Part shown: one piece after another, positions 22,811-54,674 of the stretch
How the letters are laid out: every line of letters begins with the position of its first letter
Position numbering within the stretch: the first letter of the stretch is position 1
Origin: Fennellomyces sp. T-0311
Taxonomy: Eukaryota; Mucoromycota; Mucoromycetes; Mucorales; Lichtheimiaceae
Direction: 5' to 3'
Length of the DNA: 64,000 bases
Assembly (NCBI GenBank): GCA_025266875.1
Contig: JALLLT010000076.1
Span: 1 to 64,000, forward strand
Program-made: the position numbers and the translations under genes
Notes under the pieces: model-generated
Databases searched by the model: none
What the model was told of the DNA's origin: nothing
Seen by the model: only the letters and a program-made list of their open reading frames with translations

Positions 22811-23685
22811 TGTTGTGGTGTAGTCGTGTTATGAAGCTACCACAAACTGTTGTTACTGCGACAAGAACTTATAGGGAAGTTGCTATTGAAATGTAAAAAG
22901 GAAATTTAAAATATAAAAGAAAAGGGTTAGTTCGTTCTATAAGGCGTTAATATGTCACGCAGGAGTTTTCGATTGGGCTTATGTAATGCCAACTGCGATG
23001 TGGTTTTTAGTCCTACGTGTTGAGAACAGCAGTTCCTCGGAACAAGCTTATGAGTCTCGGTAGGATATAAGAGTCTTAAAAAGGATAGTCCGGTGATCGG
23101 AACACAAGAAAAATAAACAATTGCAAACTAATTGTCAAAAAGTGAAAGAGAAAGAGAACTTGGTTTTATTGAAAAATCAGAATTTGGCTATTTATATGGT
23201 CTAACTAATGTAATGTCTAACTATGCATCGTAGCTGAGTACATTGCAGGGTGAATTTGGATATCTTTTCGTTGCCTGGCTAAGGGCATTGTTACTGTCTA
23301 TATTGTGAAGTTACTTGTGAAGAGGTCGCGTAATTTTTAATGGCATTGCGTTACCATGGACGGTGCGTTGTAATGGTGCACTGTGATCTGTTCTGCTCAA
23401 CGGGGCGGTGTTTATTTTTACAAGCTAAATGTAAATTTCGAAGAATGGTTCTAAGTAAACTCTTGCCTTGGTATTAACCTTTTTTAGTCACTTGTTGAAG
23501 TCTTGTCAATGTGTATACTAGAATATCCACTGCCTTAAGTACTGCTATTTATTGTTCGTAACAATATATTTGAATCTTTTTTTTTTGTACTAATAGTTAT
23601 ATATATCCTTGATAACTTTGAAGAGGGAGCAAAGAAGAAAGTCAAGAGGGCTATTTTCCCATGCCGTTCAAAAAGCGGCGCCACA
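22811..23685 (-). repeat. Ty3 element A, 3' LTR (875 bp)
   Basis: TG...CA boundaries; pairs with 54675-55546. The differences I compared by eye in the first 250 bp are mainly transitions. On the element strand it is preceded by a purine tract at 23696-23686 (CCCAGGGGAGA). Confidence 0.93.
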
Positions 23686-23696
23686 TCTCCCCTGGG
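23686..23696 (-). other. Polypurine tract of Ty3 element A
   Basis: Read on the minus strand, CCCAGGGGAGA abuts the 3' LTR: the plus-strand primer position of an LTR element. It follows the ORF4 stop by only a few bases. Confidence 0.7.
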
Positions 23697-23699
23697 TAA

Positions 23700-24368
23700 T
23701 CAAAAGTGCACGTCCCGTGCAGCAAGCTCGGCAGGCAATCCTTTACCAACCGTGGTATTGAAATAGTTGTTCACTAGGGTTCTCAATTGGACATCTTGTG
23801 CAGCGTAAACGTCATGTAGGTGGTTGGCTATATACAAAAAGATCGTCTGTTGTCGGACCACTTCTTCAGGAATGGCGAGCAGGACTGGATATAATCATTC
23901 AGAGATGCGAACGGCGAGTAAACGACATGTGGTTCCGAGGTCGCGGTTACATTTGCATAGCCATTGGTGTTGTAATGCGATTTTATGAATCAAATCGTAA
24001 TAATAGGTGTTTTCAAGCTCATATTGTGTGACTTCTGGATATAGAGGAGGTGGAGTAAAGTTAGAATCGTATCTTCTCTCGATTACGACTCCAGCTTGGT
24101 ATTCCGGTGACAAGTTCGGTTGGTTAACTCCAGGAATATATTTTGGAATGGCATCATTGGCCAACATATCGTCATCCACATCCATGGATCGAGCTTCGGT
24201 TGATGGTGGTGTGGGATATGGAGATAGATTGTAATTGGGTGGTTGTTTGTATGGCATATCCAAGGTGGGTGTTTCAGATACACGAGAGTCTAGGAATAGA
24301 AATGACTCGGAGGCTCTGGATACAGGAGAATAGACAGAGCTAGACAAAGGTGTTTTAATGTGATTCAT
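23700..24368 (-). pseudogene. Ty3 element A, ORF4 (conserved accessory gene, one nonsense codon)
   Basis: Starts MNHIKTPLSSSVYSPV at 24368. The conserved part starts with PKYIPG, then PEYQAGVVIERRYD, FTPPPLYPEV, ENTYYYDLIHKIALQHQ and CRLLAVRI; after a TGA (23895-23897) the frame continues LYPVLLAIPEE, then IANHLHDVYAAQDVQL, VNNYFNTTVGKGLPAELAA and stops at 23700-23702. Element B ORF4 matches block for block (RIAARLYPVL; YIATHLHD; INNYFNTMLREGLP), showing that TGA replaced an Arg codon. About 220 aa, no signal peptide or membrane segment, Ser/Pro-rich start. Function unknown; not a known env. Confidence 0.75.
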
Positions 24369-24421
24369 TGTAGAAGTTGAAGGTGGAAATTAATGTTTAT
24401 TTGAGAACTGGGGTGTATCGA

Positions 24422-24429
24422 TATTTATA
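24422..24429 (-). promoter_or_regulatory. Internal TATA box before element A ORF4
   Basis: TATAAATA read on the minus strand, 53 nt before the ORF4 ATG (24368), in the context AAGTATAAATATCG. Matches in sequence and place the boxes in elements B and D. Confidence 0.65.
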
Positions 24430-24912
24430 CTTCTTGATTTTGTGGAAAACAACTCTTCGTTGTGATTATATTTCGTCCATTGTATTATGGAGCTGTTGCT
24501 TGTGTCTTTGAGTGATTCTATGCAGTGTTGAAACATGGATCGTAACAATTGCTATCGCGTTGTAGCAGGGAATGGGGCGATGTAAAAATTTACAATGGGT
24601 TGTTACCATTAATGGAAGTTATAATTGTGGTACCAAGTTGCTATGGTCCCAATAGTTGACCAAGGGAGGTTAGGTCGTTTCTCTTAGTAGTGACAGTTTG
24701 GACAGATATTATGATTTGACACAGATTAAAATGTATCAAAGTAATTTAGCCAAGGTCCTCACTTTCTTGGTAACCATTGTCTGGCCTCGACTCAGATACA
24801 CTTGAGGCAAAGAAGATTTATGTAAACATAGATAGCAACCTTTTATCTTATATACTGCTTTGATAATTAAATATATTTAATATATATAATACTACGTCTC
24901 TTTTTCCTTGAA

Positions 24913-25359
24913 TTATTGGGGACCTTGGCTTTGGCGACGGCAGAGGATCTCCATTTCGATGCTCTCAGAAAGAGCGCGACTGAATCCATGGTTGGAGTTC
25001 ATCATTGGTAATTGTGCTGTGTTGTTTTCGTCCATCATATCGCACAGTATGAGGCGACGCATCTGGTTATCTGCATGATCCACAGTGTTTCGGAATCTTG
25101 GATGTGTGAACATGAGTTGAGCGGCCTTGGAAGCAATATACTTCCTGATTTGTTTGATCTGCTTATAGATTTGTTCATAAATCCCTAGTCGTTGTAGCAG
25201 AAGCTCAACTTCCAAATACTCGAATGTACGAGCCTCATCGGTAGTGGGGGTATCAGAGGGAAGGATTTCCCTCAACAACTGCATAACATCAGGTTGAGTT
25301 CCATCTGCTAATTGGAAGAGTTCTTCTGGGAGTTGGGGAAGTTGCATGTTAAAATCCAT
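24913..25359 (-). CDS. Ty3 element A, ORF3 (conserved accessory gene)
   Basis: A 148-aa frame, MDFNMQLPQLPEELFQLADG, starting 2 nt after the integrase stop (TAA CA ATG), which suggests translation by reinitiation. It is acidic and helical in the first half (VELLLQRLGIYEQIYKQIKQI) with a conserved late segment (HGFSRALSESIEMEIL) that lines up with element B (HPFHTRLRRELLRERLVWEL) and D (HLFHNKLRIRLQEYR). No zinc finger, membrane segment or catalytic motif is visible. This frame is still open in an otherwise decayed element. Function unknown. Confidence 0.7.
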   Translation of the reverse strand: MDFNMQLPQLPEELFQLADGTQPDVMQLLREILPSDTPTTDEARTFEYLEVELLLQRLGIYEQIYKQIKQIRKYIASKAAQLMFTHPRFRNTVDHADNQMRRLILCDMMDENNTAQLPMMNSNHGFSRALSESIEMEILCRRQSQGPQ

Positions 25360-25361
25360 TG

Positions 25362-25909
25362 TTAAAGAGAAGCTGTGAAAGTTGGTTTGAATAAAACGTT
25401 GGGGCTTTTATAATACTTTAATCTGTTCCCATGTATGGTATTTGGAATCGGTTTCCCTTCAAGTGCCTTTAACTTGTATCCACTCTTTTTGTCTATGCTA
25501 GTAATTCTGAATGGTCCCATATAGGTATCCATCAATTTTCCAGAATACGAAGTATCCAAGAAATTTTTATATACTAACACTTCGTCGTTGATTTCGAAAG
25601 GTGGCACTTTGAGGTGTTTGCGTTTACTAAACAATTTCTTTTCAATAGCGCGTTTTTGATTTTCCTGAGATTGAGCAATTGCGTGGGCGGCTTCCTGCCT
25701 AATTTTGTTTAAGGTGTCAATATGACGTTTGAATTGATCTTCCACATATTCAGGTTCAGAGCCTGCAGAATCAGAGTTTTCTGGGGCCACATCTTGTTCT
25801 ATGGCACGGTCAAAGGCAAACATTGAGGTCCTGCCAAAAATTATAAAGAATGGTGATACTTTGTGAGAGGAATGTGGTCGACTGTTGTAAGCAAAAACGG
25901 CTGAACTAA
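25362..25909 (-). pseudogene. Ty3 element A integrase, C-terminal part
   Basis: Reads SSAVFAYNSRPHSSHKVSPFFIIFGR, then the linker AIAQSQENQKRAIEKK and the C-terminal GPFRITSIDKKSGYKLKAL/HGNRLKYY region, stopping at TAA 25362-25364. It is separated from the catalytic core (30303-31077) by Harbinger copy 1; with TTA/TAA counted once the frame reads DNWDSYL then SSAVFAYNSR. The apparent start MWWLLENDF belongs to the Harbinger inverted repeat, not to integrase. Confidence 0.9.
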
Positions 25910-26210
25910 AGTCGTTCTCAAGCAACCACCACACTCTTCTGGACGAAAGTCCAAAAATAGAAATTGACTAGCCTAATTTGTTGGTCATCCGAATGGATGG
26001 CTTGAGAGGCGTTGGGTCGACCAAAATTTCCTAATTCGTGAAGATATCCAAGAAGTCAACAGTTATCGATCAAAAGTAGCCGTTTGGCCGTGAAAAAGAG
26101 GTATATAGACCATATTCTATATATTGATGATGCTCCAGATGTCAGAGAATATAAATAAGATCCAAAAATAAAAGAAACCATACGTTATTATTATTTTTAC
26201 GTTACTTACT

Positions 26211-27478
26211 ATGCGCGACAACTTCATACCCTACGTCTATCCCGTTGCTTCTCAAGGTAACCGTGAAGGTTCATCGAGTTCTTCTGCACCAGTACCCTCT
26301 CAACAAGGAGCCCCATCAACCAATGCTGTCGTTTCGCCGGTGGTTCCCCAACAGCACTCGGTCCATTCGATGTCACTTTCATATCCTGCCAATGGATCTT
26401 GGGATGAACCAAACTCGCTTCAACAGGATCGTCAGTATCCACACTACTCGCCTGGGGAAAGTTCCTCGTCTGTGCCTCCTCCCCATCTGACACTGCCAAC
26501 ACAGCAATCATGGGTGAGCTTGACGCAGCATGACATCGAGCAAAGCATATTCAGCAACGTCGACTCTGACAGCGACAGTGATTCCGGAACAAACCGACAT
26601 CCATGGACGCTTCAAGAAATCAACGAGTTGATCCGGATGAAGCAATTAGAGGAAAGAGCGCTTGTCAGTGCCATAGGAAAAGTGGCGAAGGGGAAGGTTT
26701 GGGAAAGAATAGCCGCCGCGATCCACTTGAAGAACCCCTTTGTATCCCGATCCAATGAATCAGTTCGCAAGAAGTGGGAATCGCTCCTAACAACATACAA
26801 GAGAATTCGTGATGGAGGTTCTACTGGTGTTGGTGGTGGCCCTGCTGGGGAAAGATATCCCTGGTATGATGCTCACTGCAAATAATTTCGATGGTTAAAA
26901 GTGGTTACAGTGGTGAAACATAAGCTTTTTAACCACTTGTACTACCATTTTTAGTAACTCAAGTGGTTAAAAAGCTTATGATTAACCACTTTGAAAAATT
27001 ATTCACCAAAATTCACCAAAAATTATTTGCAGTGGCTATGTTCGCGTATCTTGGTGGTAGTGCAGGTGTCGAGACAAGGTTTACAGTTGACTCTGGTCAT
27101 CAAGGCCCTTTGGTTCGAAGACGTACAGACGGCGACGAGACTGAAGTACAAGCACAGGAACGGCCGGCGCAGTGACGTAAGACCTTTCGGGAAGAGCTAC
27201 TGGAATCCCATGAGCGCTCCAGTGAAATGCTGTTCACGAGGCTCGATGAAATCTTTATGAAGATAACCGAGCAAGAGAAGCAGCTGGATGATGCGCGCGA
27301 GGCCGCTGACGAACGACGCTTCCAGGAGCAAATGCACATGGTAAAGGGGATCGAGATGGAGAAGATCCGCGCCCAAGCTGCCTCAGAGGAAAGGATGCTT
27401 CCCTTAGTTGCAGCACTTAGTGGTAGAAGACGAGTTGATGGGGATGGTGGTGAAGAAGAGCATAACAGTGATGAATAA
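26211..27478 (+). pseudogene. Harbinger copy 1 SANT/trihelix-like protein
   Basis: Starts MRDNFIPYVYPVASQG. After a Ser/Pro/Gln-rich N-terminus comes an acidic DSDSDSDSG stretch and a trihelix-type domain (HPWTLQEINELIRMKQLEERAL; VWERIAAAIHLKN; SRSNESVRKKWESLLTTYKRI). The MITE at 26874-27034 breaks it after YPWYDA. The frame then reads MFAYLGGSAGVETRF to an in-frame TGA after ERPAQ (27173-27175), followed in the same frame by a coiled coil (EQEKQLDDAREAADERRFQEQM) ending EEEHNSDE. Copy 2 has the same TGA, so it predates the copies or marks a real end. Confidence 0.8.
26874..27034. mobile_element. 161-bp CACTA-type MITE with foldback
   Basis: Perfect 15-bp terminal inverted repeats CACTGCAAATAATTT; 3-bp duplication GCT (26871-26873 and 27035-27037). 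Harbinger copy 2 gives the empty site (GATGCTATGTTCGCG). Inside are perfect 20-bp arms CATAAGCTTTTTAACCACTT (26919-26938) and its complement (26961-26980) around a 22-nt loop, so the RNA would fold into a long hairpin. CACTR ends and a 3-bp duplication point to CACTA-family mobilisation. Confidence 0.92.
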
Positions 27479-27918
27479 ACGCGCTTTTTTTGTCATTAAA
27501 ATACTTTCCGTATCTATGTCTATGATAAAAAAAGAAGTTATATAAGTACGTAGCTGTACGAGATCATGATGAGTTGTCAAGATGCATTCAGTAACTTCAT
27601 TCGAAGAGTGTCATTGCATAATTATGAAGTAAAAGAGCTTCTACCCATATACTGAGTACAGACTGACTACACAGCAAGAAATATGTGTGTACGTTTGACA
27701 GAAATAAGTGTGCACTTTTGAAAGGAAGTAGGAGAACTTGAAAGAAAAAAAAAACAAATAGTTGATGACGTGAATTGTGACAACATTTTAAATTCATGCA
27801 GATTACCTGCTATACAAATGCTACTCGGCATAATGCCAATTACATCTTGTTGGATACTGTAGTAATAGTATTTATATTTTATATCTTGCTAATTATAAAG
27901 TATGTATACATATGTGTA

Positions 27919-29869
27919 CTATCTACGTCGTCGAGCCTCGAGATCATCCTTAAGCCTATCTCGCGGGATTTTACCACGCCTTAACAGATCCGCTACTTCC
28001 TCCCTGGAAAGAGAGTCTGGAAAGTCTTGTTCTAATATCGATTCAAAACTGCCTACAAACTCTCGTTCTTGCATCGGTTGGAATACGCCGGCTTGTTCTT
28101 GCAATTGCTGCTGCAATTCACTGCTCGTGCTCGCATTGTCATCGTCATCGTCGTCTACGTTACTGTTGCTGCTCGAGTCAGAGTTTTCGCCTTCAGGATT
28201 ACGGTGGGCGTCGACTTGTTGGACTGTCACACGACTTGAATCATTAAGTGTCTGGTCAACATCGTCGATATTTACAGGAAGATTGTTGCCAGGTCTGTCG
28301 ATACTAATATTGTGTAAGATGCAGCAAACATATATCGTAAGCGTAAGATCGAGTTCGGAATGCTGGTACAGGTAATGCTTCAAGAAACGCCATCGCGCAA
28401 CAAGGCCAGAGAAGGTGCGTTCAATTCGCATGCGTTGCGATGAGTGCATAAAATTGAATTGCTTCTCTGCCGGGTCACTGGTTTCTTTTGCGTATGGGGT
28501 GATCAGATATGGTCGAAGGGGATATGCAGAATCTACACATAAATATACTATATAAATAAATATACACTATTAATATGTTAGTACGTACCAGCAATGATAT
28601 AAGATCCGTTAGGACACTTTTCCTCAGGTCTATTCTTGAGGTCCTCTGCAAGCGAACTTCTGGAAAAAACTCTGGCATCATGAACACGGCCTAGAGTTAT
28701 ACAAAGTAATTAGTGAAGATATATTTATATCATTTATACTAATATGATATACTTTACCTGATTCTCCAGGAAAGGCATATGTGATATTCAACAATAAGAA
28801 GAGGCAGGTAAGTGACGAGACTCAAGTAATGACTGATTTATTTCATATGTTGAATCATCACTTTAAATAATAAAAGCTTATTCTCGAGGGGTTGGATCAT
28901 TGACATGGTTGTAAGGCACATGAACCGCTGTGGTAACCAGGGTTATGTGGGTTTCACTAAGATAGGCAAGGTTATTACGATGAACGCATGTCAAGACAGG
29001 GATGTGGCTGTAGATCGGAAAATTAAAGTAACCCGTTGTCAATAAGCAAACAAGGGTAAATGATGCATAAGCCATAATCATGTTGTGGATACAACAGCAT
29101 ATAAGATGCGCGTATCCGCATCACAGACGGCCAGTAGGTTCATCGAGTTATGGTTCTTGCGATCCATGTAAGCGACATTACTGTGGGCGGGTTTATGAAT
29201 AACAACCAGCTTGCCATCCATTGCCCCGATAACGTTGGTCAACCTCGGTCTCTGGACTATACGAGTCCGATCACTTGGGACCAGTACATTCGCAAATTCG
29301 TCAGCAATTGCTTGGACTTCTTGTGCAGTTGCAGGCCAGCGAATATACCTACCATGAACATTGATCATGGCCTTCACAAAAGTTTTTGTAAAGTTACGGT
29401 ACGATCCTTGGGACAAGCCAAAAAAGTTCTTGAATGCGCGGTACCCAAGATGTGTGTTTGCATATCGCCATAGTACACAGGCAACTTGCATATACACCGG
29501 CGTTGCATTTATGGCAGTGGTCTGGTATAACGGATCAGATGACAAAGTGTTTACCAGCCACTCAAAAGTTGCCTTGTTCATTCGGTAGTGAGCCTTGTAG
29601 CTGTCTCTTGGGTTATCATCGTCTTGAAGGCCGGGGTGCTCAACTGCCCAATAGTGGTAGTTGGCCTCCTTGTTTTGTCGTTCGGCCCGGAAGTGGTGTG
29701 GCGATCCAACGTATGCATACGTTTCAACTATCATGCTCATTGAACGCAATGCCGTTGTTGCCATTCCAACTAACAATCGCATATATACTCGGCGTCTATG
29801 CTGCGCTTGCTGGTGACGACGTTTACGTTGTTGCTGACGGTATGCTTGTAATTGGTTGAGATGATCCAT
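27919..29869 (-). pseudogene. Harbinger copy 1 transposase, split by a solo LTR
   Basis: Starts MDHLNQLQAYRQQQRKRRHQQ at 29869. The N-terminal region has WLVNTLSSDPLYQ and YRAFKNFFGLSQGSYRNFTKTFV (HTH-like); the catalytic acids are in NVIGAMDGKLVVIHKP, GRVHDARVF and RIERTFSGLVARWRFLKHY. Introns are at about 28690-28757 (GTAAAG donor) and 28532-28588. The C-terminus is a low-complexity acidic stretch (SSSNSNVDDDDDD) then ARRRR. The LTR at 28780-29096 cuts it right after ADTRILYA. Copy 2 carries the same protein with other damage. Confidence 0.9.
28780..29096 (+). mobile_element. Solo LTR (317 bp)
   Basis: Starts TGTGATATTC and ends GGATACAACA; flanked by GCATA (28775-28779 and 29097-29101). 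Copy 2 of the Harbinger provides the uninterrupted site. Length, TG...CA ends and a 5-bp duplication fit a solo LTR left by recombination between two LTRs. A related copy runs off the start of the window (1-116). Confidence 0.85.
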
Positions 29870-30302
29870 GATAAAAAAATGTGTATATATTACTTCAAAA
29901 ATAATACCGTATATATATATCTTTTTTTACTGTACAGCGCTTTCCAAAATAAAAACCTCGAGCGTTTACTCATAAGATCTTACTAATGTGATATCGTCCG
30001 CAGCTTAATACCTTTTTCAAGTGATGATACGAGTAAAGACACACACTTTTCAGTTACTAAATACGAGAGGTATGCCGAATCGCTTGCATAATACATGTGT
30101 TACATGTACATTCCTTTTTCGATGAAGTGGATTTCCTTTTTCTCTTTTGACCTCAGTACGGAGCATCGTTTCATTCCTCCGTACTTCTTGCCCAATTTGA
30201 TTCCATCGGCCAACCCCGCTTTGGAAATTTTTCTTCGGTGTCTGAAAAACCTTTCTAAAAACAGCTCTACCGGAAGAGTTTGGTGGATGCTTGAGAACGA
30301 CT

Positions 30303-31077
30303 TAAGGTAACTATCCCAGTTATCCTTTTCTTCTTCTGGAAGCTTCTTTAAAATAGAGTTTATGTTCTTATTCATACGTTCACAAAGACCGTTGCTCTGA
30401 GGGCGATATGGGTGAATTTTGACTAGTTTAATGGAAAGGTTTTTACACACGGCGTCGATAATTTTATTGGATAACGGTAGACCATTGTCATATGTTATGA
30501 CCTTGGGACATCCATGGATACAAAATACATCATCATGCAAAAATTGATATGTTTCACACGCATTTGCAAATCAGGTTGCTTGGGCAACACAGAATTTGGA
30601 AAAGTAGTCAATTGCCACATAAATATACTGCTTGCCAGTGCGGCTGATATGTTGATGTTTGATGTCCAAACCGATGTGTCTAAAGGGTTCAGGTTTATTT
30701 ACTGGAACTGGATGTAAAGGTTCTTGTAATAATTGAGGTCCAGATTTTTGACAGCGTGGGCAGGATTCTATGGCTTCCTTGATGTCTTTCCGCATGGTAG
30801 GCCAGTAGTATTTAACTTTGATACGGTTGTAAGTGGAGAGAAACATCAGATGTCCACCCCACGGATGAAAGTGATATTGATAAATCGCGTTTATGGCTTC
30901 TTGCTCTGAGAGCACAAGGCGGGGAATTGGTAATCCTCGTCTATACAATCTTTCGTTATAGACAAAATAATGCTTCTTTTGAGTGTACAAATAACGTTGC
31001 TGTTGCTTGGTAATTCCAGGTGGGTATTCCAAGGTAGTGAGATAGTATTGTAAATGAGATAGCTTTGTTGGATCCAT
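30303..31077 (-). pseudogene. Ty3 element A integrase, N-terminal and catalytic part
   Basis: Separate frame with its own ATG at 31077 (MDPTKLSHLQYYLTTLEYPPG), 200 nt downstream of the RNase H stop. HHCC region (QYHFHPWGGH...CPRC), catalytic Asp in HIGLDIKHQ, Asp in VITYDNG, Glu in GLCERMNKN. A TGA (30568-30570) replaces Arg where element B has PTRLANA. The frame ends at the Harbinger insertion and continues at 25909. Confidence 0.9.
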
Positions 31078-31277
31078 TGCTTTGATTAATGTTTATTGAT
31101 AGAATTTTGATGCAGAGAATAATTGAATATGGATCGGGTATGTATGTTTTGATTGGTATTGTATAATTAAAATTAGGAAAAGAATATATGGGTGGGTTTA
31201 TGTATCGGCGATGTGAGATAGTTATCGAGGGTTAAGTTTTAAGGTGAGATCTTTATACTAAATGGTCTTGCTTTTCT

Positions 31278-32917
31278 TTAATATCCAAGTCTAGAGAGGA
31301 AATCAGCATTGGTGTTTGACTTACCAGCTTTGTGTTTTACATTAAACGAATATTTGGATAAAAGGGATATTCATCGTGCGTAGATCCCTTCGGGTCTTGG
31401 TGTATTGAGTAATTCTTTAATGCTGGCATGATCGGTGTAAACGGTAAAAGTGTTGGATAGGAGGTAAGGTCGAAGAGTCTTTACTGCCCATACTAGGCCT
31501 AACATTTCAAGCTTTGTGCTTCCATATGAGGCTTCCGCGCCTTTTAATCCTCGACTTTGGTATAATACAACTTGTTCGTGGTAGTTCGTGTCTCTTTGTG
31601 ATAATACGCACCCTAAACCTTGTTTTGAGGCATCAATGGTAATTTCAAATTTCTTTTCAAAATCAGGACGGATAAGGATAGGGCTACTACAGAGACACTT
31701 TTTCAAGGTCTCAAACGCTGTAGTTTCTTTTTCCCCCCATGGAGGTCGATTCTTGGTCTTCATTTGGTTGTGTAGCGGTCTAGCAATTGCTGCAAAATTT
31801 GTGATGAATCTTCGGTAATATGAAGCCATTCCAATGAAGCTTCGGACTTGTTTTACTGTTTTTGGGATTGGTAACTTCACTACCTTTTCTACTTATTCTG
31901 GGTCAGTGTGTATTCCTTGGTCACTGATTACATAGCCAAGAAATCTAAGTTTTCTTTTAAAGAAATGACATTTACTTGGACTAAGTAATAGTCCTGAAAA
32001 TCGTGTGCAGGCAAAAAGTTTAGCGAGATCATGTAGATGTGTCTTTACTGAATTGCTGCAAGTAATTGAATCATCCAAGAAGTTTTGAATTACTTCTGCT
32101 GATAGAAGAGATCTATAGCATATTTCCGCTGCTCTACTATACAGGGCTGGAGATACTGATAATCCCATTGTAGCTGTTTCTTGAGTAAAGGTTCCAAAGG
32201 GGGTTACAAATCCAGTAAGTGGTTTGGATCGTTCCGTTAATGCTATTTGCCAAAATGCTGCTGAAACATCGCATGTACTAAAGATCGTAGCACTGCCTTG
32301 GGCATCCAGGATATCATCGATTCTTCCTATTGGATAGGCATCCTTTCTTAATTGGCTATTAAGTTTTCTGTAGTCCACTACTAATCGATAACTCTTTTTA
32401 TCTTTCTTCTTGACCATTAGGACAGGGGAAGCCTAAGGAGTACTAGAGGGTTTAATTATTCCTAATTTGCATAACTGATCGAGTTCTATTTTCAAGTGTT
32501 GCTTTTCAATTGGCGCTATACAATAAGGTGTAGATCTGATAGATGTAGTACCCTCTTCTACTTCAAGATCATATTCTAGACGGTTACATCTGCCTATTTT
32601 ATCACCTGTCCAGTTAAAAATGTCCTGATACTGGGTAACTAGTGCTATAAATTCTTGATGGGTTTGCTAATCTACTTCTCCTATATTCAGCATATCTTTT
32701 TATTCTTTGGTGAGAGGAGGTTGTTGTATATAGGAAATTTTATGCTTCAGTTGAACTTCCTCAAGATTTGGTACATAATAACCTTGGCAATCTGAAGTGA
32801 CAGGTAGTAAATTACCTAAATGGGTACCTGATGGCAAAAGGCACAATTTATCGGCCATATTTAATATAGTCACCTTGTATGATTTTTCGTTTTCGAATAG
32901 AATTCCACTATAAACGT
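31278..32917 (-). pseudogene. Ty3 element A reverse transcriptase and RNase H
   Basis: Continues the linker region after the element B insertion (VYSGILFENEKSYKVTIL). RT fingers and palm: SPVLMVKKKDKKSYRLVVDYRKLN, FCT-like FGTFTQETATMGLSVSP, and FLDDS where most RTs (and element B) have YLDD. RNase H: FEITIDASKQGLGCVLSQ, STKLEMLGLVWAVK, YTDHASIK and the closing ADFLSRLGY, stop TAA 31278-31280. Premature stops include TAA 32700-32702 (Gln in B), TAG 32433-32435 (Trp in B) and a TGA near 31368 (Trp in B). Confidence 0.9.
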
Positions 32918-33451
32918 TGTTATGACGTTTTTGGTTCTCAAGGGAAGCTGATAGTCGTTGTGACACTAACTTCCTAATTAAGTTCAGATAAATGTCAAGT
33001 CCAGACATATATCAAAATCCAAATACTTGCCAAGATCCAGATTCTGTCCGATATCCAGATATGATCGAAAACCTATATTTTATAAAAAGTCCAGATATAA
33101 GAAATTGTATAGACTAGATAAGTGTCTGAGGAAAGGTATAAATAGAGCGTGTCAGTTATCTGTAAAGCTTAGTTCTTCCCAACATAAAGTTTTCTCTACA
33201 TAAACTTCTTTTTATCTTGACCTTATCTGTCCTATCTCAACGAGAGTCGACAATTTGATAATTCCTTTTTAGGATATTACCGCAGTTTGGCAACGAATAT
33301 AAGACCAATTCTTGAAGAACTCCTGCGTATATTAACACTAACTTTCATAGGTTACTAACTCTTACATAGAATCTTGATAAGAAATAATTTGAGACAATTC
33401 GTTATTGTCAAATTTTAGTTGTGTCCAAGTCATACAAAAACCGACATAACA
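32918..33451 (+). repeat. Ty3 element B, 5' LTR (534 bp)
   Basis: TG...CA ends with a 7-bp inverted terminal TGTTATG/CATAACA. A TATAAATA box lies at 33137-33144, the presumed start region for the genomic RNA. Confidence 0.94.
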
Positions 33452-33454
33452 TCT

Positions 33455-33472
33455 TGGTGCTCACTACAGGGG
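33455..33472 (+). other. Primer binding site of element B
   Basis: TGGTGCTCACTACAGGGG, 3 nt after the LTR. Element A has the same site with one change (54672-54655). It should pair with a tRNA ending CCCCUGUAGUGAGCACCA; I do not assign the amino acid. Confidence 0.75.
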
Positions 33473-33607
33473 CAGTTTAAAAAAGTAAAGTGCTCTTGCT
33501 AATTAAGAATATAACTCGATATTCCGTCACATCGCCGACATCGACATAAATTCAGAATAACCCAAACGAAGGCTAAAACTAAGGCTAAAAAGAAGCGAAC
33601 AAACAGC

Positions 33608-36600
33608 ATGCCAGAATCATCTGAAGAAATTAAGAAAGAAATTGTAACTACAGGACAAGTCACAACAGCACCATCACCTGTGTTGGTTAGCACTAATAGC
33701 GCATGCTTTAAACCTAAGCTGATCGACTTCTGTGGTTATGAAGGCGAAGACTTCCGCCATTTCAAAGAAACGTTAGAATCTTATTTTATAATTACAAATG
33801 TATCGGACAGTGCTCGTAAAGCCGATATTTTAATGGCTCAGTTAAAGAAGTATGCTCGAATTTACCTGCAAGTCAAAACAAGAACCAATCATAAACTCAA
33901 GGTTCAGTACGATGAGCTCATTAAACTTCTCGAAGAAGAATACCTCACCGAAGACATTATCGAGCAATACAAGGATCCGTTCTTCAGATTAAAGCAAGGA
34001 GAAAGTGAATCACCGCGTACCTTTCTTGCTCGAGTTTATCAAGGAGCTGAGCTAGCTAATTTAAGTGGAAGAGAAGGCGCTATTCTAGTAGAAACACAAT
34101 TTAAGAACGGACTTTTGCCACGTGTGAGAAAACACTGCCAAACGCAGAATGCCTCTAGTTTTGATCAATATAAATTATGTGCTTATGGGTATTGGAGAGG
34201 ACAGCATGGAACAGTATTGTATCCTCAAGATAATCCATTTGTACCTATGAAAGAGGAAGAAAAAATACCTCCGGCATGGTATGATAGACTTCCTCCGTCT
34301 AAAGATGCATTAGATCGAGCTAGAGCTCATGCACTTCGAGTACCCGCTTATAATCCAGGAACTGAATCGCCCACAATGGAATCCTTAACCCGACAAATGC
34401 AAAGCCTTGAATTATATCAACATGAATCGACTAATAATGCATATGGTGCCTCTGTCCATCAACGTCCGCAATTGGGTCACCATGGTGATAGTGAACTTGA
34501 AGCGATAATTCGTAGGATAATACAAGAAGAAAATAGGAAATCCGTAGACTTCCGCAATCAGAATTATAATCGCCCACGTCGCTTTAATAACTATAGGCCG
34601 CAATATCAGAACAATTATAGGAATGGTAGAATAAATGAGGAGCCAGTTGCGCGTGACACTCAACCCAACCGTCAAAACAACTATAGAACGAATCACCCAT
34701 CCGGTTTCCAGCAGAATTACTCGCCTAACAGAGAACAGTATCGAGCCCGCCCAAACTCGCCCGCAGGAACTATAGCTGCTTTGGTGGAAGAAGAAGAGTT
34801 CAAGCTTCCACAGCAAAAATATACGTCTTTAGGCTACGGAAGCAATGAAGAATATGACGAATATTTCGAACTTGAAAGGAACGAGTATGACGAAGATGAA
34901 ACTGACGAGTCAGATGACGAAGAATTTTATCAGACAGAAACTGAGGAATTATTTCCTGCTCGTGAATTGCGACCAAGAAATGATTCAGGTAAAGTAAAAA
35001 AGATTGACAATCCGTTAAAGAAAGTAGCCTTCCAAGAATTACCTTTACGACGCAAAAAGAAAAATCGGGACAACTACACAACAACAAATATCGGAAGGAC
35101 AGTTCCGACCGTCACACATGAAATTGCAGCGAATGGAAATACTCCCCCAATTGCTAACATGGAAATAGACCCCAAGGAAAGGGAGAATTTACCACAGCCG
35201 CCTCCAGTAACTGCCTTTGGTAAAACGGGATTTACACGCGAAGAAACGCCTATTTGGCGAGCCACTACTAAAAAGGCGCCTGTTGGTAGGCAATGGACTA
35301 AATTTAGGAACGAATTTGAAAGGATGGATTTAGATTCCCCCTCTTCTGATAATACTACCCGAATAAGTCATAAGACAAATACTGAAGTAGTCGATTTGAC
35401 AAAACCTCAGCGAGGAAAAGATAAGGTTTCACGACCGAAGGCTCCTCAAACATCGAAGAAGACACCGGGTCCAAAGAAAAGTACTAAGGCGCCTGCTAAA
35501 CGACGAGCTGCAGGTGGACGCATATATACAGCGGCACAAAAGAAAATTCCTTATAATATTTCAGCCGACGTTTTAAACAGATCTGCTGATATAAGTGTAG
35601 GACAATTGATTTCTATTGCCCCCTCTTTGAGAAGACACTTAATAACGGCTTGTAAAGAATCAAGGACGTTGGCTGTGTTAGACAATCAAGGGCCAGATCT
35701 TACATCATCATATACAACGGCTCTTTATGCAAACTTTGTGATACACTCCGTCCCAGTCAAGGCGCTTATTGATTCAGGCGCTTCAAAGACTTGCCTTTCA
35801 AAAGCATTCATAGACCGTCTTGGACTACGAATTACGAATCCATCTACTGCAGTATTTTTATTAGGAAATGGCGATCGGCAAGCCTCCTTGGGCTCTATTG
35901 CTAATGTACCACTGAGGCCTAACTCTTCAGACCCAGTGCCCATAACCATTGAGGTACTCCCAGATTGCCCGGTGGATTTGATTGTTGGAAATAATTGGTT
36001 ATCAAAGGCTCGTGCTCGCATTGACTACGAGTCCAAGAAATTATGGATAAATCATGGTATAACACGATCGATTCCTATAAGCTGCGAAAGACAGTCTCCT
36101 AAGGGAATTGCTTATACTTCAGTAGAAAACACAGAGGAAGAATCAGATTCAGAATATTCAACAGACTCATCTAGTGATTCCGAAATTATTATGGGACCAG
36201 ATGTAGAGTTTGAATCTGATAGCAAACATTCTTCACCGTTAGATGAAATGTTGGCTTCAGAATATTGGCTGGGTGAAGAATTATTTACCATAAAAGATGA
36301 TATTCCTTTGGATACCAACTTTTGCGACGATAAAATAAGAGTTGACACCAGAGAAGATATCCACCTAGAGCCAGATTCTTATTATACATATGAGGTTCCA
36401 ATAAGTGAACAAATATATAATACTTATGTGTTCGAAAATAACGGAACCTTAGGACTTGGAATAGATGTGTATAGTGGAATCCTGTACGAAAACGAAAATT
36501 CCTACCGTGTAACGATTTTGAATATGTCAGATAAGCCTGCCACCCTAAAAGCAAATACGTTTTTGGGTAATCTCGTACCTGTTACCAACGATTGTCAAGG

Positions 36601-38113
36601 GTACCACTTACCAAACCTTGAAGACTTGAAACATGGTGATGGAAAGCTAAAGTACAGTTTCCCACCTCTGACTCAAGAACAGGTAGACATGGTCGAAATA
36701 GGAAATGTAGACCCTCAAACGCGACAAGAATTCCTTGCACTACTAGCATCGTATCAGGACATTTTTGATTGGGATGGTCAGACACTCGGAAGAACGACTA
36801 AGCTGACCTATACCATACCCTTAAAAGAGGATGCTGTACCAGTACGAACACGACCATATCGGATGGCTCCAGTAGAAAAAGAATTTTTGAAGAAGGAGCT
36901 TGAGCGCATGTGTAAGATGGGAATTATTAGACCCTCGGCGTCTCCATGGGCGTCTCCCATTATTTTGGTTCCTAAGAAGGATGGTACATACAGGTTGACG
37001 TGTGACCTGCGTTTACTTAATAAGCAGCTTCGTCAAGACAGTTTTTCGTTGGGAAGAATCGACGATTTACTAGATCAATTGGGTAATGCCTCTATATATT
37101 CAGTATGTGATATGTCAAGAGGTTATTCACAAGTCCCTTTATCCCCAGGAATTAGTACTGAATGCACAGGATTCGTATGTTGTTTAGGAAGTTATGAACA
37201 CTTGACACTTCCACAAGGTCTTAGCACCTCAGTCAGCTGTTTTTCACGTTTGGTTAGTATTTGTTACCGTGCATTATTATCATCAGCAAACTCGCCGCAA
37301 ACAATGGTGGCATATTTAGATGACCTGAATGTATTTTCGCACAACAAAAAGCAACATTTACATGCCTTAGCAAAATTATTCGCCTTAACAAGATATGCAG
37401 GCTTGGTATTTAGCCCGCGCAAGTGCGCTTTCTTTAAAGATAAGCTTAAGTTCCTCGGTTATATCGTAAGCAAGGACGGGTTACAAACAGACCCTGAAAA
37501 AATAAAGAAAATTGCATCACTGGAACAACCGAGAACTGTGAAACAAGTAAGGAGCTTCATAGGAATGGCAAGTTACTACCGGCGTTTTGTGGAAGGTTTC
37601 AGTAAGATATGTCGACCGCTGCATAACCAGACAAAAAAGGATCGACCCGCTTGGGGTCCAGAAGAAACCTCTGCATTCGAAGAATTGAAAAGGAAATTGT
37701 GTACAAGTCCAATTTTAGCGCATCCAAACTTCGATGAGAAATTTGAGATTCAAATTGACGCAAGCAAACAAAGTTTAGGTTGTGTCCTATCACAGCGCGA
37801 TAACGAGAACCGAGAAAAGGTTATATTATATTTAAGCCGTGGATTGAAGGGTTCTGAGAAAAATTTTAGTGCAACGAAGTTGGAGATGCTTGCGCTAGTC
37901 TGGAGTATTCGCAAACTTCGACCATATTTGTTGTCAAAACCATTCATTGTGTATACGGATCATGCAAGCATAAAAGGACTACTAAATACGGCACGACCTG
38001 AAGGTATAGTGGCACGATGGTTAGTTACCTTAGGTGAATATATTTTTGAAGTACGGCATCGATCAGGAAAGAAGAATTCCAATGCAGATTTTCTTAGCCG
38101 GTTAGGTTATTAA
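33608..38113 (+). CDS. Ty3 element B Gag-protease-RT-RNase H polyprotein (1,501 aa, open)
   Basis: Gag lies at residues about 35-230 (KLIDFCGYEGEDFRHFKETL; DPFFRLKQGESESPRTFLARVYQGAEL). Instead of a CCHC knuckle, residues about 310-390 are Asn/Arg/Tyr-rich (RPRRFNNYRPQYQNNYRNG), then an acidic stretch. Protease: VKALIDSGASKTCLSK (DSG at about 722) and LIVGNNWLSKARA. RT: PVRTRPYRMAPVEKEF, ILVPKKDGTYRLTCDLRLLN, SVCDMSRGYSQVPL and AYLDDLNVFS (about 1236). RNase H: FEIQIDASKQSLGCVLSQ, TKLEMLALVWSIR, YTDHASIKGLL, ending NADFLSRLGY. Integrase is not part of this frame. The copy looks able to make its polyprotein. Confidence 0.95.
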   Translation: MPESSEEIKKEIVTTGQVTTAPSPVLVSTNSACFKPKLIDFCGYEGEDFRHFKETLESYFIITNVSDSARKADILMAQLKKYARIYLQVKTRTNHKLKVQYDELIKLLEEEYLTEDIIEQYKDPFFRLKQGESESPRTFLARVYQGAELANLSGREGAILVETQFKNGLLPRVRKHCQTQNASSFDQYKLCAYGYWRGQHGTVLYPQDNPFVPMKEEEKIPPAWYDRLPPSKDALDRARAHALRVPAYNPGTESPTMESLTRQMQSLELYQHESTNNAYGASVHQRPQLGHHGDSELEAIIRRIIQEENRKSVDFRNQNYNRPRRFNNYRPQYQNNYRNGRINEEPVARDTQPNRQNNYRTNHPSGFQQNYSPNREQYRARPNSPAGTIAALVEEEEFKLPQQKYTSLGYGSNEEYDEYFELERNEYDEDETDESDDEEFYQTETEELFPARELRPRNDSGKVKKIDNPLKKVAFQELPLRRKKKNRDNYTTTNIGRTVPTVTHEIAANGNTPPIANMEIDPKERENLPQPPPVTAFGKTGFTREETPIWRATTKKAPVGRQWTKFRNEFERMDLDSPSSDNTTRISHKTNTEVVDLTKPQRGKDKVSRPKAPQTSKKTPGPKKSTKAPAKRRAAGGRIYTAAQKKIPYNISADVLNRSADISVGQLISIAPSLRRHLITACKESRTLAVLDNQGPDLTSSYTTALYANFVIHSVPVKALIDSGASKTCLSKAFIDRLGLRITNPSTAVFLLGNGDRQASLGSIANVPLRPNSSDPVPITIEVLPDCPVDLIVGNNWLSKARARIDYESKKLWINHGITRSIPISCERQSPKGIAYTSVENTEEESDSEYSTDSSSDSEIIMGPDVEFESDSKHSSPLDEMLASEYWLGEELFTIKDDIPLDTNFCDDKIRVDTREDIHLEPDSYYTYEVPISEQIYNTYVFENNGTLGLGIDVYSGILYENENSYRVTILNMSDKPATLKANTFLGNLVPVTNDCQGYHLPNLEDLKHGDGKLKYSFPPLTQEQVDMVEIGNVDPQTRQEFLALLASYQDIFDWDGQTLGRTTKLTYTIPLKEDAVPVRTRPYRMAPVEKEFLKKELERMCKMGIIRPSASPWASPIILVPKKDGTYRLTCDLRLLNKQLRQDSFSLGRIDDLLDQLGNASIYSVCDMSRGYSQVPLSPGISTECTGFVCCLGSYEHLTLPQGLSTSVSCFSRLVSICYRALLSSANSPQTMVAYLDDLNVFSHNKKQHLHALAKLFALTRYAGLVFSPRKCAFFKDKLKFLGYIVSKDGLQTDPEKIKKIASLEQPRTVKQVRSFIGMASYYRRFVEGFSKICRPLHNQTKKDRPAWGPEETSAFEELKRKLCTSPILAHPNFDEKFEIQIDASKQSLGCVLSQRDNENREKVILYLSRGLKGSEKNFSATKLEMLALVWSIRKLRPYLLSKPFIVYTDHASIKGLLNTARPEGIVARWLVTLGEYIFEVRHRSGKKNSNADFLSRLGY

Positions 38114-38162
38114 TGCTGTTGCTAACCGATATAATATCGAGTTCCACTTCTGCTATCGACTC

Positions 38163-38187
38163 AAAAAAAAAAAAAAAAAAAAAAAAA
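38163..38187 (+). repeat. A25 tract in the pol-integrase spacer
   Basis: An uninterrupted run of 25 A, 50 nt after the polyprotein stop. It is followed by two imperfect copies of a 45-bp unit sharing CACGGGATGTCGTTAAACTC-like sequence (about 38200-38283). Confidence 0.9.
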
Positions 38188-38443
38188 TATGATTATTTAC
38201 TGACTAGTACGGGATGTCGTTAAACTCACGCGAAAAATATCAACAATGGACCAGCACGGGATGTCGTTAAACTCATGCGAAGCAATTGACAAACTTACCT
38301 TAAATAACTGTTAAATCCGATATAAGCATAATCTGTGTCACCAATACTGTCTACAAGGAATCAATGCAACCTTATAATTAATAACTTGGAAATTGACTTT
38401 TAATCATAGCTCACTCGACTTCAATATCAATTTAAGAGACAGC

Positions 38444-39772
38444 ATGGACCCAGTTAAACTATCATTATTGCAATACTACCTTGATACCTTGGAGTATCCG
38501 CCTGGAATAACTAAACAACAACAACGTTACATTGCTACACAATGCAAGCATTATTTCACGTGTAATGAACGCGTGTATCGACGCCACACATCTGGGCCAC
38601 GTTTAGTTTTGACACGCCAAGAAGCGGATAATGCAATATATCAATACCATTTTCATCCCTTAGGAGGACACTTCTCTCCTTTAGCTACTTATAATAAAAT
38701 CCGCGCCAAATACTATTACGAAGGTATGCGCGTTGATATAGAACGAAAACTAAGAGCATGCCATCATTGCCAAATGGTAGGAAAACCACGTGGGATAAAC
38801 GAACCACTTCATTCTATATCTGTAGTTCCCACGCCATTTGAATTCATATCCATAGATGTCAAGCATCTACAGCCGAGTAGGTCAGGACATCAATATATTT
38901 TTGTTTGCTGCGACCTATTTTCCAAATTTGTTGTAGCAAAACCAACTAGACTTGCAAACGCAACAGAACTCGCCGAATTCCTTTTTGAAAACATCATTTG
39001 TATACATTCGACACCAAAAATATTACTAACCGATAATGGAACGAACATGCGAAGTAAATTGATTGAATCTGTATGTAAAAACTTCTCCATTACACACCGC
39101 TTCACGACGGCTTTCCATCCGCAAGGCAATGGACTCTGTGAAGTCACCAACAAATTCATTGGATTAATGATAAAGAAATGTACAGACGAACAAAAGAAAG
39201 ATTGAAATAAATATTTACCGGCTCTGGTATATGCATACAATAGTAAAGTGCATTCGGCTCATAAGCGTACCCCGTTTGAGATTGTTTATGGACGAAAACC
39301 GTCATCTCCTTTTGATCGGGTCATGGAGGATATACCTGAATCTATATCTGTAGATATGGATGATAAACAATTTGATGAGTATATGCAAAAATTCATTCAC
39401 ACGTTACTAACGATAAGACGAGAGGCTGCTGATGCTATTGCTCAAGCCCAAGAAACGCAAAGACGAACAATAGATAGAAAACTAAATGCAAAGCGGCGAC
39501 ATCTTATTCAACCGGGTTTCAATATTGGAGACAAGGTGCTATTGTATAAGAATTCCATTGAAACGTCTTGGTCTGGAAAAATGCAGTGGAATTGGACTGG
39601 ACCGTTCTATGTACACCATGTTAATGAAAATAGTACATACCAACTTAAGACTGAAAAGGGTATCCCGGTAAAAGGATTCGTGCATGGCAATCGTATAAAA
39701 GGATATAAGTCTATAGATGTGAATTTCAGACCTTCTTTCACTTCATTATCAAGTAACGACTTGGCAATCTGA
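38444..39772 (+). pseudogene. Ty3 element B integrase (separate ORF, one nonsense codon)
   Basis: ATG 38444 (MDPVKLSLLQYYLDTLEYPPG) matches the starts of the A and D integrases, so the separate ORF is a family trait. HHCC: YQYHFHPLGGH...CHHC. Catalytic residues: SIDVKHLQPS, LLTDNGTNM, GLCEVTNKF. TGA at 39203-39205 (codon 254) replaces Trp of KDWDSYL in D. The frame continues KYLPALVYAYNSKVHSAHKR and through the C-terminal domain (GPFYVHHVNENSTYQLKT) to the stop at 39770-39772; length with Trp would be 442 aa. Inserts the cDNA into chromosomal DNA. Confidence 0.92.
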
Positions 39773-39779
39773 CCGTATC

Positions 39780-40160
39780 ATGGATCAAGAAGAACTCATG
39801 GCTCTATTGTCATCTCCTCTAAATTTCTCAGACATATCAGAAGAGCTTGGGAGCCTTCTAGAAGAACTGAGAACGCATGCCATCGAAGAACTCTTGGTTG
39901 CAAGAATACTTCACAACCGGATGACCTTGACTAGGCGTCTCAGCCAAGTAATTTATAGCGATCAGTACTTTGCTTCTGCTTTGGCTCAATGTCGCAATAC
40001 CGGACGCAAGGCTTTACTGGTGCGTCTCTTTGTGGAACGTGCTATTGATATTGCTATTTTGCAAGAAAACCACCCGTTTCATACGAGACTCCGAAGGGAG
40101 CTACTCAGGGAGAGATTAGTTTGGGAGCTGCGTCAAAAGTCAAAGAATAATGACAAGTAA
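39780..40160 (+). CDS. Ty3 element B, ORF3 (126 aa, conserved accessory gene)
   Basis: Starts MDQEELMALLSSPLNF, 7 nt after the integrase stop. Predominantly helical and charged; the C-terminal third is strongly basic (FHTRLRRELLRERLVWELRQKSK). The start (MDQEELMALL against MDFNMQLPQLPEELFQL) and the late HxFxxxLR block are shared with A, and the latter with D. No known domain and no membrane segment. The position downstream of integrase is that of env in retroviruses, but nothing resembles a glycoprotein; nucleic-acid binding or particle assembly are possible guesses. Confidence 0.75.
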   Translation: MDQEELMALLSSPLNFSDISEELGSLLEELRTHAIEELLVARILHNRMTLTRRLSQVIYSDQYFASALAQCRNTGRKALLVRLFVERAIDIAILQENHPFHTRLRRELLRERLVWELRQKSKNNDK

Positions 40161-40589
40161 TAAAGGTCAAACTTTTTACCAAAGGAATATTTAAATCACC
40201 TAAAGATTTAACGCGTAATGAATCGTGACTTATGGGACCACCGTACAATTATTCGTACTTATATTCGTCGCTATGACAGTTGATTACAGATAAGACCAGC
40301 TATAAGTGTCAATAATAACTCTAATGACAGAATGGATCAAATCTCTGAAAATTATTTTGCTGGAAGCAAGCTATACGGAGCCATATCAGGGTTCGATTTT
40401 TATCTGATAGTGACAAAAAAAAAAAAAAAATGTTCTTACTACCGCAATATTATCCCTAATTGGTTGCCTAATACGTTAGATTCTATACGTGTAGAGGAAG
40501 AAGAAAGATTCGTGAAGTAGAGGAAGAAAGATTCGAGCTGTAGAAGAAAAAAGGGTATTGCCGGAAAGTAAGGCCTTCATCTTCCAAAG

Positions 40590-40597
40590 TATAAATA
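40590..40597 (+). promoter_or_regulatory. Internal TATA box before element B ORF4
   Basis: AAAGTATAAATACCGG, 40 nt before an ATG at 40637. The LTR promoter carries the same TATAAATA core (33137-33144), which supports reading this as a second promoter inside the element. Confidence 0.65.
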
Positions 40598-40636
40598 CCG
40601 GTCTTCATCATTCATTTCTCTCCATCAATTCTAATA

Positions 40637-41283
40637 ATGAACTTTTATCCTGTTGGCCCTACTTCTCCTGTTACACCGTTTCCTCTGCTTCGGGATCAGA
40701 CTCAGTCAGCGACTGTATTTACCAGCTGGAGTCTCAGACTTCTGCCAGCGATATTTTGCCATCGGTGGCTTCTGATGTAAAAGTCGAGCCAATTCCAACC
40801 ATTGCACCTTCTCTCATCGACGTTTCTAATGGTGTACCCAAGTACATTCCAGGATATGACCTACCAGTAGTCAAACCTGAATATGCTGCAGGTTCAGTCA
40901 TCGAAAGACGCTTTGACCCTGATTTTGTCCCCCCACCATACTACCCAGCAGTTGATTCATTCACCGTCGAGAATACATTTTTCTACGATCTCAACCATGA
41001 ATTCGCCTACCAGCACCAGTGTATTCGTGTTGCGCAAAAGAATTTGGATGTTGCGAGACGTCTCCTTGCATATCGGATTGCAGCTCGCCTCTATCCTGTG
41101 TTGATGGCTATATCGGCTGAGGATACTCGCCAGCACACCATCCAATCGTATATCGCTACACATTTGCATGATACTCATGTTTCTCAGGATGCTCGTCTGC
41201 TTATACTCATCAATAACTATTTCAATACCATGTTGCGAGAAGGATTGCCTTCCCATCTTGCCGCTACTGAAATTTTTATATAA
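40637..41283 (+). CDS. Ty3 element B, ORF4 (conserved accessory gene)
   Basis: The conserved frame runs to the stop at 41281-41283. Blocks: YQLESQTSASDILPSV, GVPKYIPGYDLPVVKPEY, AGSVIERRFDPDFVPPPYYP, ENTFFYDLNHEFAYQHQ, ARRLLAYRIAARLYPVL, YIATHLHDTHVSQDARL and INNYFNTMLREGLPSHLAA. The ATG best placed after the TATA box (40637, MNFYPVGPTSPVTPF) is in another frame, so a one-base shift lies within the first 40 codons; the open frame itself extends up to 40558. About 210 aa, soluble, no signal peptide. The same protein occurs in A (23700-24368) and truncated in D. Function unknown. Confidence 0.72.
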
Positions 41284-41599
41284 ATTCAGTTGTTGTTGTT
41301 GTGCTACACAACAATTTGCTCCTTGGAATTTTTGGGAGCCTTTGGCAGTTACTTTTCCTTTCTCTTTCGCCTTAGGGCATATATTCTAATTCTTCTTTCC
41401 CACCAATGTATGAAATTATTTTCATAAATAAATCATGTCAGTAATAGCAGTACTCTGTATCGTTGACTCGCCTTTTGCCTTTACCTCAAGAACCATTCAT
41501 CCAAGTATTGTCACCGTCGCATGACCAGTCTTAGGCAATATGCTTGATAAACATTCCTATGGTCAAGTATAATCTTCAATACACGGGACGTGTATTTTA

Positions 41600-41614
41600 C
41601 AAGGGAGGGGCATA
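41600..41614 (+). other. Polypurine tract of Ty3 element B
   Basis: AAGGGAGGGG just upstream of the 3' LTR at 41615. Confidence 0.75.
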
Positions 41615-45011: not shown

Positions 45012-45221
45012 ATCTGGTTGAAGTAATTGCCATTTTCCATACCTGCAGCGGAGGGAATTATCGTCATGGTTGCGGATTCTTTTTATCTTGACGAGAAAAA
45101 AAAACCGTGATCTTATGCTGCGCGTTCAACCTTGATTTTTTTTGCTAAAGTCACACTTTGAAGAACGCGTCGCGAAGTCCCCATAACCACAGTTCAACAC
45201 TCTCCCCAGCTCTCGACTACC

Positions 45222-48472: not shown

Positions 48473-48834
48473 GCATCATTGTTAAGATACAATTTGTAAG
48501 ATATGCAGTAAGTAATAGCAGCTGGGTTTTATAAAAAGCTATAAACTCAACACGGACTAAAGTGAATTAAAGTGTTTCAATAAGCATCTTATTCCTTGCA
48601 TTTTTCATAACTAGCTTTGAATAGTTTAAAAAAGATATAAAACGAGCAAGATTCACTTAAATCAATTTAAACAGTTTTGAAACGTTTCAACAAGCTCGAC
48701 TTTATGGCATTTTGCTCAACTTTTTTTGCAACTAGTTTGCAATAGTTTAAAAATGATATAAAACGAAGAAAAGAAATTAAAATAGATTTAAATGGATATA
48801 AAATGTTTCAACAAGTTTCGTTCCCATAGTGATC

Positions 48835-54672: not shown

Positions 54673-54674
54673 AA

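Follow-up and report, generated by a model that had tools for sequence, protein, structure and literature searches.

Additional open reading frames (aORFs) between pol and the 3' long terminal repeat (LTR) are known from several LTR retrotransposons; the available descriptions give them as antisense in plants and in Boty, and Grande gene23 as transcribed from a promoter of its own (PMC7264820; the same is cited in PMC11963269). Here we compare with these a Ty3 lineage of the Mucorales, represented by three elements, A, B and D, within a 64,000-nucleotide stretch of Fennellomyces sp. T-0311 DNA (the window; it lies on contig C157 of a genome of 45.6 Mb in 182 contigs). In this lineage a single frame for Gag, protease, reverse transcriptase (RT) and RNase H is followed by integrase (IN) in an ORF of its own, by ORF3 and ORF4, and by the 3' LTR. 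Like gene23 of maize Grande, the corresponding ORFs of Retand and RIRE2, and brtn of Boty from Botrytis, ORF4 is a conserved gene between pol and the 3' LTR; as those ORFs are described, ORF4 is set apart from them by its sense orientation and by the separate IN of its element. The likeness to gene23 extends to the promoter, which is reported for gene23 and predicted for ORF4.

Other comparisons are more distant. A second, internal promoter feeding the accessory genes Tas and Bet is described for foamy viruses (PMC8670036), and the likeness considered is one of layout; foamy viruses are animal retroviruses, and the promoter in this fungal lineage is predicted from sequence. LTR elements of bdelloid rotifers also keep an extra ORF downstream of pol within families, but the ORF3s so described are of env-like, esterase, exonuclease, coiled-coil or membrane types and are given as products of spliced messages (PMC5408684). 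The typical fungal Ty3 element likewise has LTRs and the order protease, RT, RNase H, IN; in the account consulted, however, IN is usually the final part of pol (PMC3248453), whereas here it is an ORF of its own and ORF3 and ORF4 are added. The matches listed from the open-licence PMC literature included no paper that deals with this lineage, with ORF4 or with a stand-alone Ty3 IN. Because precedents exist in Grande gene23 and the foamy-virus internal promoter, an LTR element with an accessory gene is not wholly new; the lineage is probably best described as such an element, unusual in the sense orientation of the gene, its probable own promoter and the separate IN. The sequence-only reading of the window had proposed an undescribed system, which holds for ORF4 as a protein family in the searches made and does not hold for the presence of extra ORFs between pol and the 3' LTR, already reported in the aORF descriptions (PMC7264820).

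We put the probability at roughly 0.6 that two or more transcription units supply the proteins of this lineage. Gag, protease, RT and RNase H share one frame and IN begins at its own conserved Met; ORF3 would form the C-terminal domain of IN, made by reinitiation where it is split from IN. For ORF4 we infer, fairly strongly, an internal promoter with a TATA box, which would give a short mRNA in sense orientation that ends within the 3' LTR or close to it; its product, with a disordered, acidic, Ser/Thr/Pro-rich N-terminus, a conserved FxPPPxYP (PPxY) stretch and a helical C-terminal domain, may act on the host. Ty3 elements are thought to bring IN into the particle within the polyprotein; if the above is true, a separately translated IN would need another packaging route, and an accessory gene with its own promoter would call for another means of timing expression. 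The lineage hints at a control of expression more virus-like than is usually credited to fungal elements of this kind.

Conservation of ORF4 in three subfamilies

The window was sorted by tblastn with the proteins of three copies of the lineage (L036, L041 and L047). This bore out the order read from the sequence alone, with the polyprotein ending at RNase H and followed by IN, ORF3 and ORF4 in A and D on the minus strand and in B on the plus strand (Table 1). A, B and D represent distinct subfamilies within the lineage, D belonging to the C subfamily, as their treatment as three diverged elements had implied; A proved to be one element with B nested inside it. The LTRs and the order protease, RT, RNase H and IN (H2C2 and rve core domains) place the lineage in Ty3/Metaviridae.

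Genome searches found ORF4 at no fewer than 15 loci (at least 15) in the three subfamilies. IN lies upstream on the same strand at 13 of the 15; of the remaining two, C115 begins at a contig end and keeps an ORF3 fragment, and C158 is a truncated remnant. The ORF4 proteins at four C-type loci (C95, C106, C150, C172) are identical, which suggests recent copying of these loci. The block-by-block alignment of the A and B proteins noted earlier is real, with 53% identity over 147 residues (E 7e-48). Beyond this genome, homologues are P0005 of Zychaea mexicana, which places ORF4 in another genus and is known here from the protein alone, and P0006, from a 1.5-kb contig; none was found in IMG/VR. Since most copies carry it and its protein sequence is conserved, ORF4 can be counted among the aORFs.

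Codon comparisons of ORF4 used eight of the 15 copies, with bootstrap limits. Between subfamilies, as in the comparison of A with B that had been proposed as the check, synonymous sites are saturated, with a proportion of synonymous differences (pS) of 0.79-0.90 against 0.27-0.42 for nonsynonymous ones (pN); within subfamilies the ratio of nonsynonymous to synonymous rates (dN/dS) is low, with an upper limit below 1, in four of seven pairs. These are the A pair at 0.085 (0.02-0.24) and the C pairs at 0.110 (0.034-0.278), 0.019 (0-0.077) and 0.291 (0.114-0.956); the B pairs, at 0.254, 0.496 and 0.865, have upper limits of 1.1, 1.9 and 4.1 and are not informative. With its many copies and these comparisons in view, ORF4 is a genuine accessory gene in this lineage and evolves under purifying selection where the data can tell, in agreement with the earlier claim of conservation under selection. 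Gene capture by LTR elements is known from published cases (PMC11963269), and ORF4 might in principle be a captured host gene without function in the element; we consider this most improbable, given that a search with the Zychaea protein returned the same 15 loci as the other ORF4 query and no others, 13 with IN upstream and two remnants, that ORF4 divergence tracks pol (by identity, B and C are nearer to each other than to A in the polyprotein, IN, ORF3 and ORF4 alike), and that selection is seen in the four pairs.

The gene is present in A, B and D as had been stated, but every copy in the window is defective: A has an internal stop codon, B a frameshift, and D is truncated. Open copies are present on other contigs, and the case for ORF4 thus rests on copies elsewhere in the same genome. 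For B, the frame formerly listed from 40516 has no ATG before the conserved part, and the start codon lies at 40637 in another frame. Overall the earlier observation is confirmed and its interpretation partly supported; the promoter evidence and the spread of the stand-alone IN, treated below, had been missed.

Stand-alone integrase and ORF3

One copy per subfamily was read across this junction, and there the polyprotein frame closes behind RNase H, with the Met of IN 198-334 nucleotides further on; the usual, though not absolute, Ty3 feature of an IN inside the pol polyprotein is absent from these three copies. Conservation of IN begins at this Met (MDPxKLS) in all three subfamilies, and H2C2 and core domains are detected in each. 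A chromodomain at the IN C-terminus was not listed in Pfam scans up to E 1 (IN of three subfamilies, the C type including its ORF3 part); weak rows below the cut-off were FAF (E 0.015) and SH3_Tf2-1 (E 0.039). In the B and C types the stop codon of the polyprotein is followed by long runs of A (L036 4694-5028, L041 4784-5098).

The IN N-terminus has 39 matches in the genome, 35 of them in frames of up to 606 aa, many being fragments. Among these 35 are further IN groups, X, Y and Z, at 37-40% identity; the other four matches (C155, C136, C91, C66; 30-31% identity) lie in polyprotein-like frames of 654-1618 aa. When 84 database relatives were sorted from a MAFFT alignment, 57 started with Met at the same point, 17 extended more than 20 residues upstream, nine started later and one was otherwise placed, in a search that admits proteins of 0.55-1.75 times the query length and so favours the Met-start class. 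Three loci in IMG/VR matched the IN profile. The stand-alone IN is probably more widespread than ORF4, to judge from these matches, and it should be easily testable elsewhere, since IN-sized proteins starting at the same Met are annotated in Rhizophagus irregularis and appear among the relatives.

ORF3 had been taken for a separate gene, and this stands for two of the three subfamilies; in the subfamily of D, IN and ORF3 form one 606-aa frame at four loci. Where split, the ORF3 ATG lies 2 nucleotides past the IN stop codon in the A-type copies L046 and L047 and 7 in the B-type L036, a spacing that leads us to infer termination-reinitiation. Because it is either fused to IN or placed directly after the IN stop, we read ORF3 as a detachable tail of IN and propose, with moderate confidence, that it is a C-terminal IN domain, made by reinitiation in the split forms. 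The split B form and the fused C form match directly (32% identity, E 9e-12). The A form stands further off, with P 5.6e-5 and a probability of 66% in a profile comparison, and a genome search with it recovered only A-type copies and, at E 0.07, a remnant on contig C13. Within subfamilies dN/dS of ORF3 is 0.226 (0.13-0.39) in B and 0.151 (0.04-0.41) in A; between subfamilies it is saturated, with values of 0.55-0.68 for L036 against A copies. In other IN proteins, ORF3 gave two weak rows among 84 (E 0.048 and 0.39). No membrane segment was found in it by hydropathy (best 19-residue mean 1.17). The idea that ORF3 and ORF4 are duplicates of one domain was rejected, the profile comparison probabilities being 0.2 and 0.3%. 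The C13 remnant (L048 5868-6329) contains an ORF3 relative, 38% identical, beside sequence that by eye resembles the IN C-terminus; neither IN nor ORF4 was detected by tblastn in the 9.9 kb there.

The TATA box before ORF4 and the possible roles of its product

TATAAA occurs about 45-60 nucleotides before the ORF4 ATG in all 14 copies whose 5' end was read (the truncated C158 copy lies outside this count), and 12 of them have TATAAAT. In one copy per subfamily, TATAAAT stands 47, 53 and 61 nucleotides before the ATG; dinucleotide shuffles (5000 each) place it at 40-70 nucleotides in 1.5, 1.0 and 1.4% of cases, for a motif that had already been noticed before the test. In an alignment anchored at the box, the DNA around it is essentially unalignable between subfamilies. 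No ATG intervenes between the box and the ORF4 ATG at four of five loci, and in L041 a single ATG overlaps the box; in a transcript beginning about 30 nucleotides past the box, the first AUG would be that of ORF4. Upstream of the IN ATG, TATAAA is absent from the B and C types; in the A type it occurs once, 177 nucleotides before that ATG. As predicted from the TATA box, ORF4 probably has its own internal promoter. A long A run also lies before ORF4 of B (window 40410-40430).

ORF4 could instead be expressed as retroviral env is, from an LTR transcript, either the genomic one or a spliced one, with the TATA box incidental; spliced messages are given as the typical source of ORF3 products in LTR elements (PMC5408684). 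We think this unlikely, as the position of the box is kept in three subfamilies despite flanks that cannot be aligned, and as no splice donor motifs (GTAAG, GTATG, GTGAGT and similar) occur in the LTR and leader of A and B or in the read parts of L041 and L047, although a pattern scan of this kind cannot exclude splicing.

For the protein expressed from the predicted promoter, an AlphaFold model (five sequences) gives a predicted local distance difference test (pLDDT) score below 50 for residues 1-93 and a mostly helical region at 109-210, in which the blocks between about residue 121 and residue 200 average 84-92. The N-terminal part is acidic, with 37-38% Ser, Thr and Pro, and the conserved part carries a net charge of -2 to -3. 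In agreement with the sequence-only reading, no membrane segment was found by hydropathy (best 19-residue Kyte-Doolittle mean 1.33 in three intact copies) and no Pfam or NCBIfam family scored above cut-off. The FxPPPxYP stretch holds PPxY in 14 of the 15 genome copies and in the Zychaea protein, and not in P0006 or the C39 copy; shuffled proteins hold PPxY in 8-14% of cases. In the model the motif adjoins the disordered part, probably an accessible place. PPxY is a ligand of Rsp5/Nedd4 WW domains, and since it is conserved next to a disordered part, our leading guess, a weak one, is that ORF4 may be an adaptor that recruits a ubiquitin ligase with WW domains (Rsp5/Nedd4 type) to a host factor involved in silencing or restriction, the ligase too being supplied by the host. 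More broadly, it is perhaps a small accessory protein that is non-structural, faces the host and does not depend on genomic RNA for its production.

PPxY motifs are also late domains in retroviral Gag, and together with the location of ORF4 between IN and the 3' LTR this allows an env-like or particle protein to be considered; we find that doubtful at best, since the protein has no membrane segment by hydropathy and an env-like product would be expected to differ in this respect, while fold searches gave no clear match and speak neither for nor against it. A close second to the adaptor as a functional guess is a transcriptional or silencing regulator, expressed early from the internal promoter in the manner of foamy-virus Tas. 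A TATA box ahead of an accessory gene that lies in sense orientation towards the 3' end of the element recalls the described foamy-virus internal promoter, from which Tas and Bet are expressed (PMC8670036), and the acidic, disordered, Ser/Thr/Pro-rich N-terminus would also suit such a protein. Sharing of 9-mers between the region upstream of ORF4 and the element's own LTR exceeds most shuffles in the B type (13; reached by 13 of 1000), but not in A (12; 149 of 1000) or in C (7; 548 of 1000, the stretch from the ORF4 stop to the LTR end being used in place of the LTR). With the excess confined to B, a response element common to promoter and LTR is not consistently indicated; the negative charge of the conserved part and the lack of any DNA-binding family in the Pfam and NCBIfam searches also count against this role, which we regard as rather unlikely.

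Taking the two-unit organization with the adaptor guess, the lineage could have evolved the logic of complex retroviruses independently: the LTR RNA would yield Gag, protease, RT and RNase H, IN would be separate with a detachable tail, and an internal sense promoter would drive early ORF4, disarming host defence through a ubiquitin ligase recruited by PPxY. This fuller scheme is speculative and, in our estimate, improbable as a whole. RNA interference is reported to act on transposons in Mucor lusitanicus (PMC11943222), and if ORF4 counters host silencing, the Mucorales would be worth searching for fungal retroelements that resist host defences.

Layout of the window and neighbouring features

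Coordinates of the elements and their genes are collected in Table 1. Most of D ORF4 is missing, the part after the initial residues having no tblastn match in the window. Gag is named by position: in two polyproteins scanned, Pfam matched protease, RT and RNase H and no gag family, and no CCHC zinc knuckle was found by pattern in the L036, L041 and L047 polyproteins, in which an Asn/Arg-rich stretch follows the N-terminal part (by eye).

Table 1. Elements, genes and boxes in the window, with the loci of ORF4 and of further IN groups in the genome
Feature	Position or loci	Strand	Remarks
Element A (A subfamily)	22811..55546	-	interrupted by B and other insertions
LTRs of A	54675-55546 (5'), 22811-23685 (3')	-	96.2% identical
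Flanking 4-bp repeat of A			CTAG
IN of A, tblastn match	31149-30271 and 25910-25365	-
Stand-alone IN of A from conserved Met	25365..31077	-	pieces 31077-30271 and 25910-25365
ORF3 of A	24916..25359	-	148 aa; tblastn match 25407-24916; ATG 2 nt past IN stop codon
TATAAATA box of A	24422..24429	-	61 nt before ORF4 ATG; predicted internal promoter
ORF4 of A from ATG	23700..24368	-	tblastn 24368-23703; one internal stop codon
Element B, nested inside A	32918..42145	+
LTRs of B	32918-33451 and 41615-42145	+	97.4% identical
Flanking 4-bp repeat of B			ACGT
Gag-protease-RT-RNase H frame of B	33515..38113	+	ends after RNase H; domains shown on close copy L036
IN frame of B	38378-39772	+	tblastn
Stand-alone IN of B from conserved Met (MDPxKLS)	38444..39772	+	one premature stop; H2C2 and core domains in first part
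ORF3 of B	39780..40160	+	frame 39723-40160; ATG 7 nt past IN stop codon
TATAAATA box of B	40590..40597	+	47 nt before ORF4 ATG; predicted internal promoter
ORF4 of B	40637..41283	+	match 40651-41280; frameshift just past start codon; conserved part 40834-41280 open
Element D (C subfamily)	11361..15035	-	tblastn; taken as D of the sequence-only reading, ~15.0-10.5 kb
IN of D	15035-13740 and 11877-11770	-	tblastn
ORF3 of D	11769-11361	-	tblastn; two segments, different frames
ORF4 of D, initial 64 residues only	10552..10743	-	tblastn
A-type ORF4 loci	C2, C166, C157-A
B-type ORF4 loci	C141, C157-B, C115, C134, C39
C-type ORF4 loci	C95, C106, C150, C172, C47, C173, C158
IN group X	C79, C99, C135, C148, C2:1129938		frames 529 aa
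IN group Y	C122, C149, C130		frames 487-555 aa
IN group Z	C90, C176, C117		frames 510-517 aa

A stretch resembling a primer-binding site, TTGGTGCTCACTACAGGGG or nearly so, follows the LTR in all three subfamilies (window 33430-33500 and the leaders of A, L041 and L047). The IN of A is split by a DDE-type DNA transposon, seen as DDE_Tnp_4 pieces on one strand and a Myb/SANT-like protein on the other (window 26150-29930), and this insertion at 26-30 kb is presumably PIF/Harbinger-like, given its layout. By eye, near-identical transposon frames lie at 48790-52040, still within A, and similar frames adjoin the C158 ORF4 remnant (L045). Outside A, the frame at 56882-57880 resembles, by eye, a transposase that we take to be of MULE/FAR1 type, and a 467-aa frame at 60757-62160 resembles a tyrosine recombinase, which we assume to be Crypton-like.

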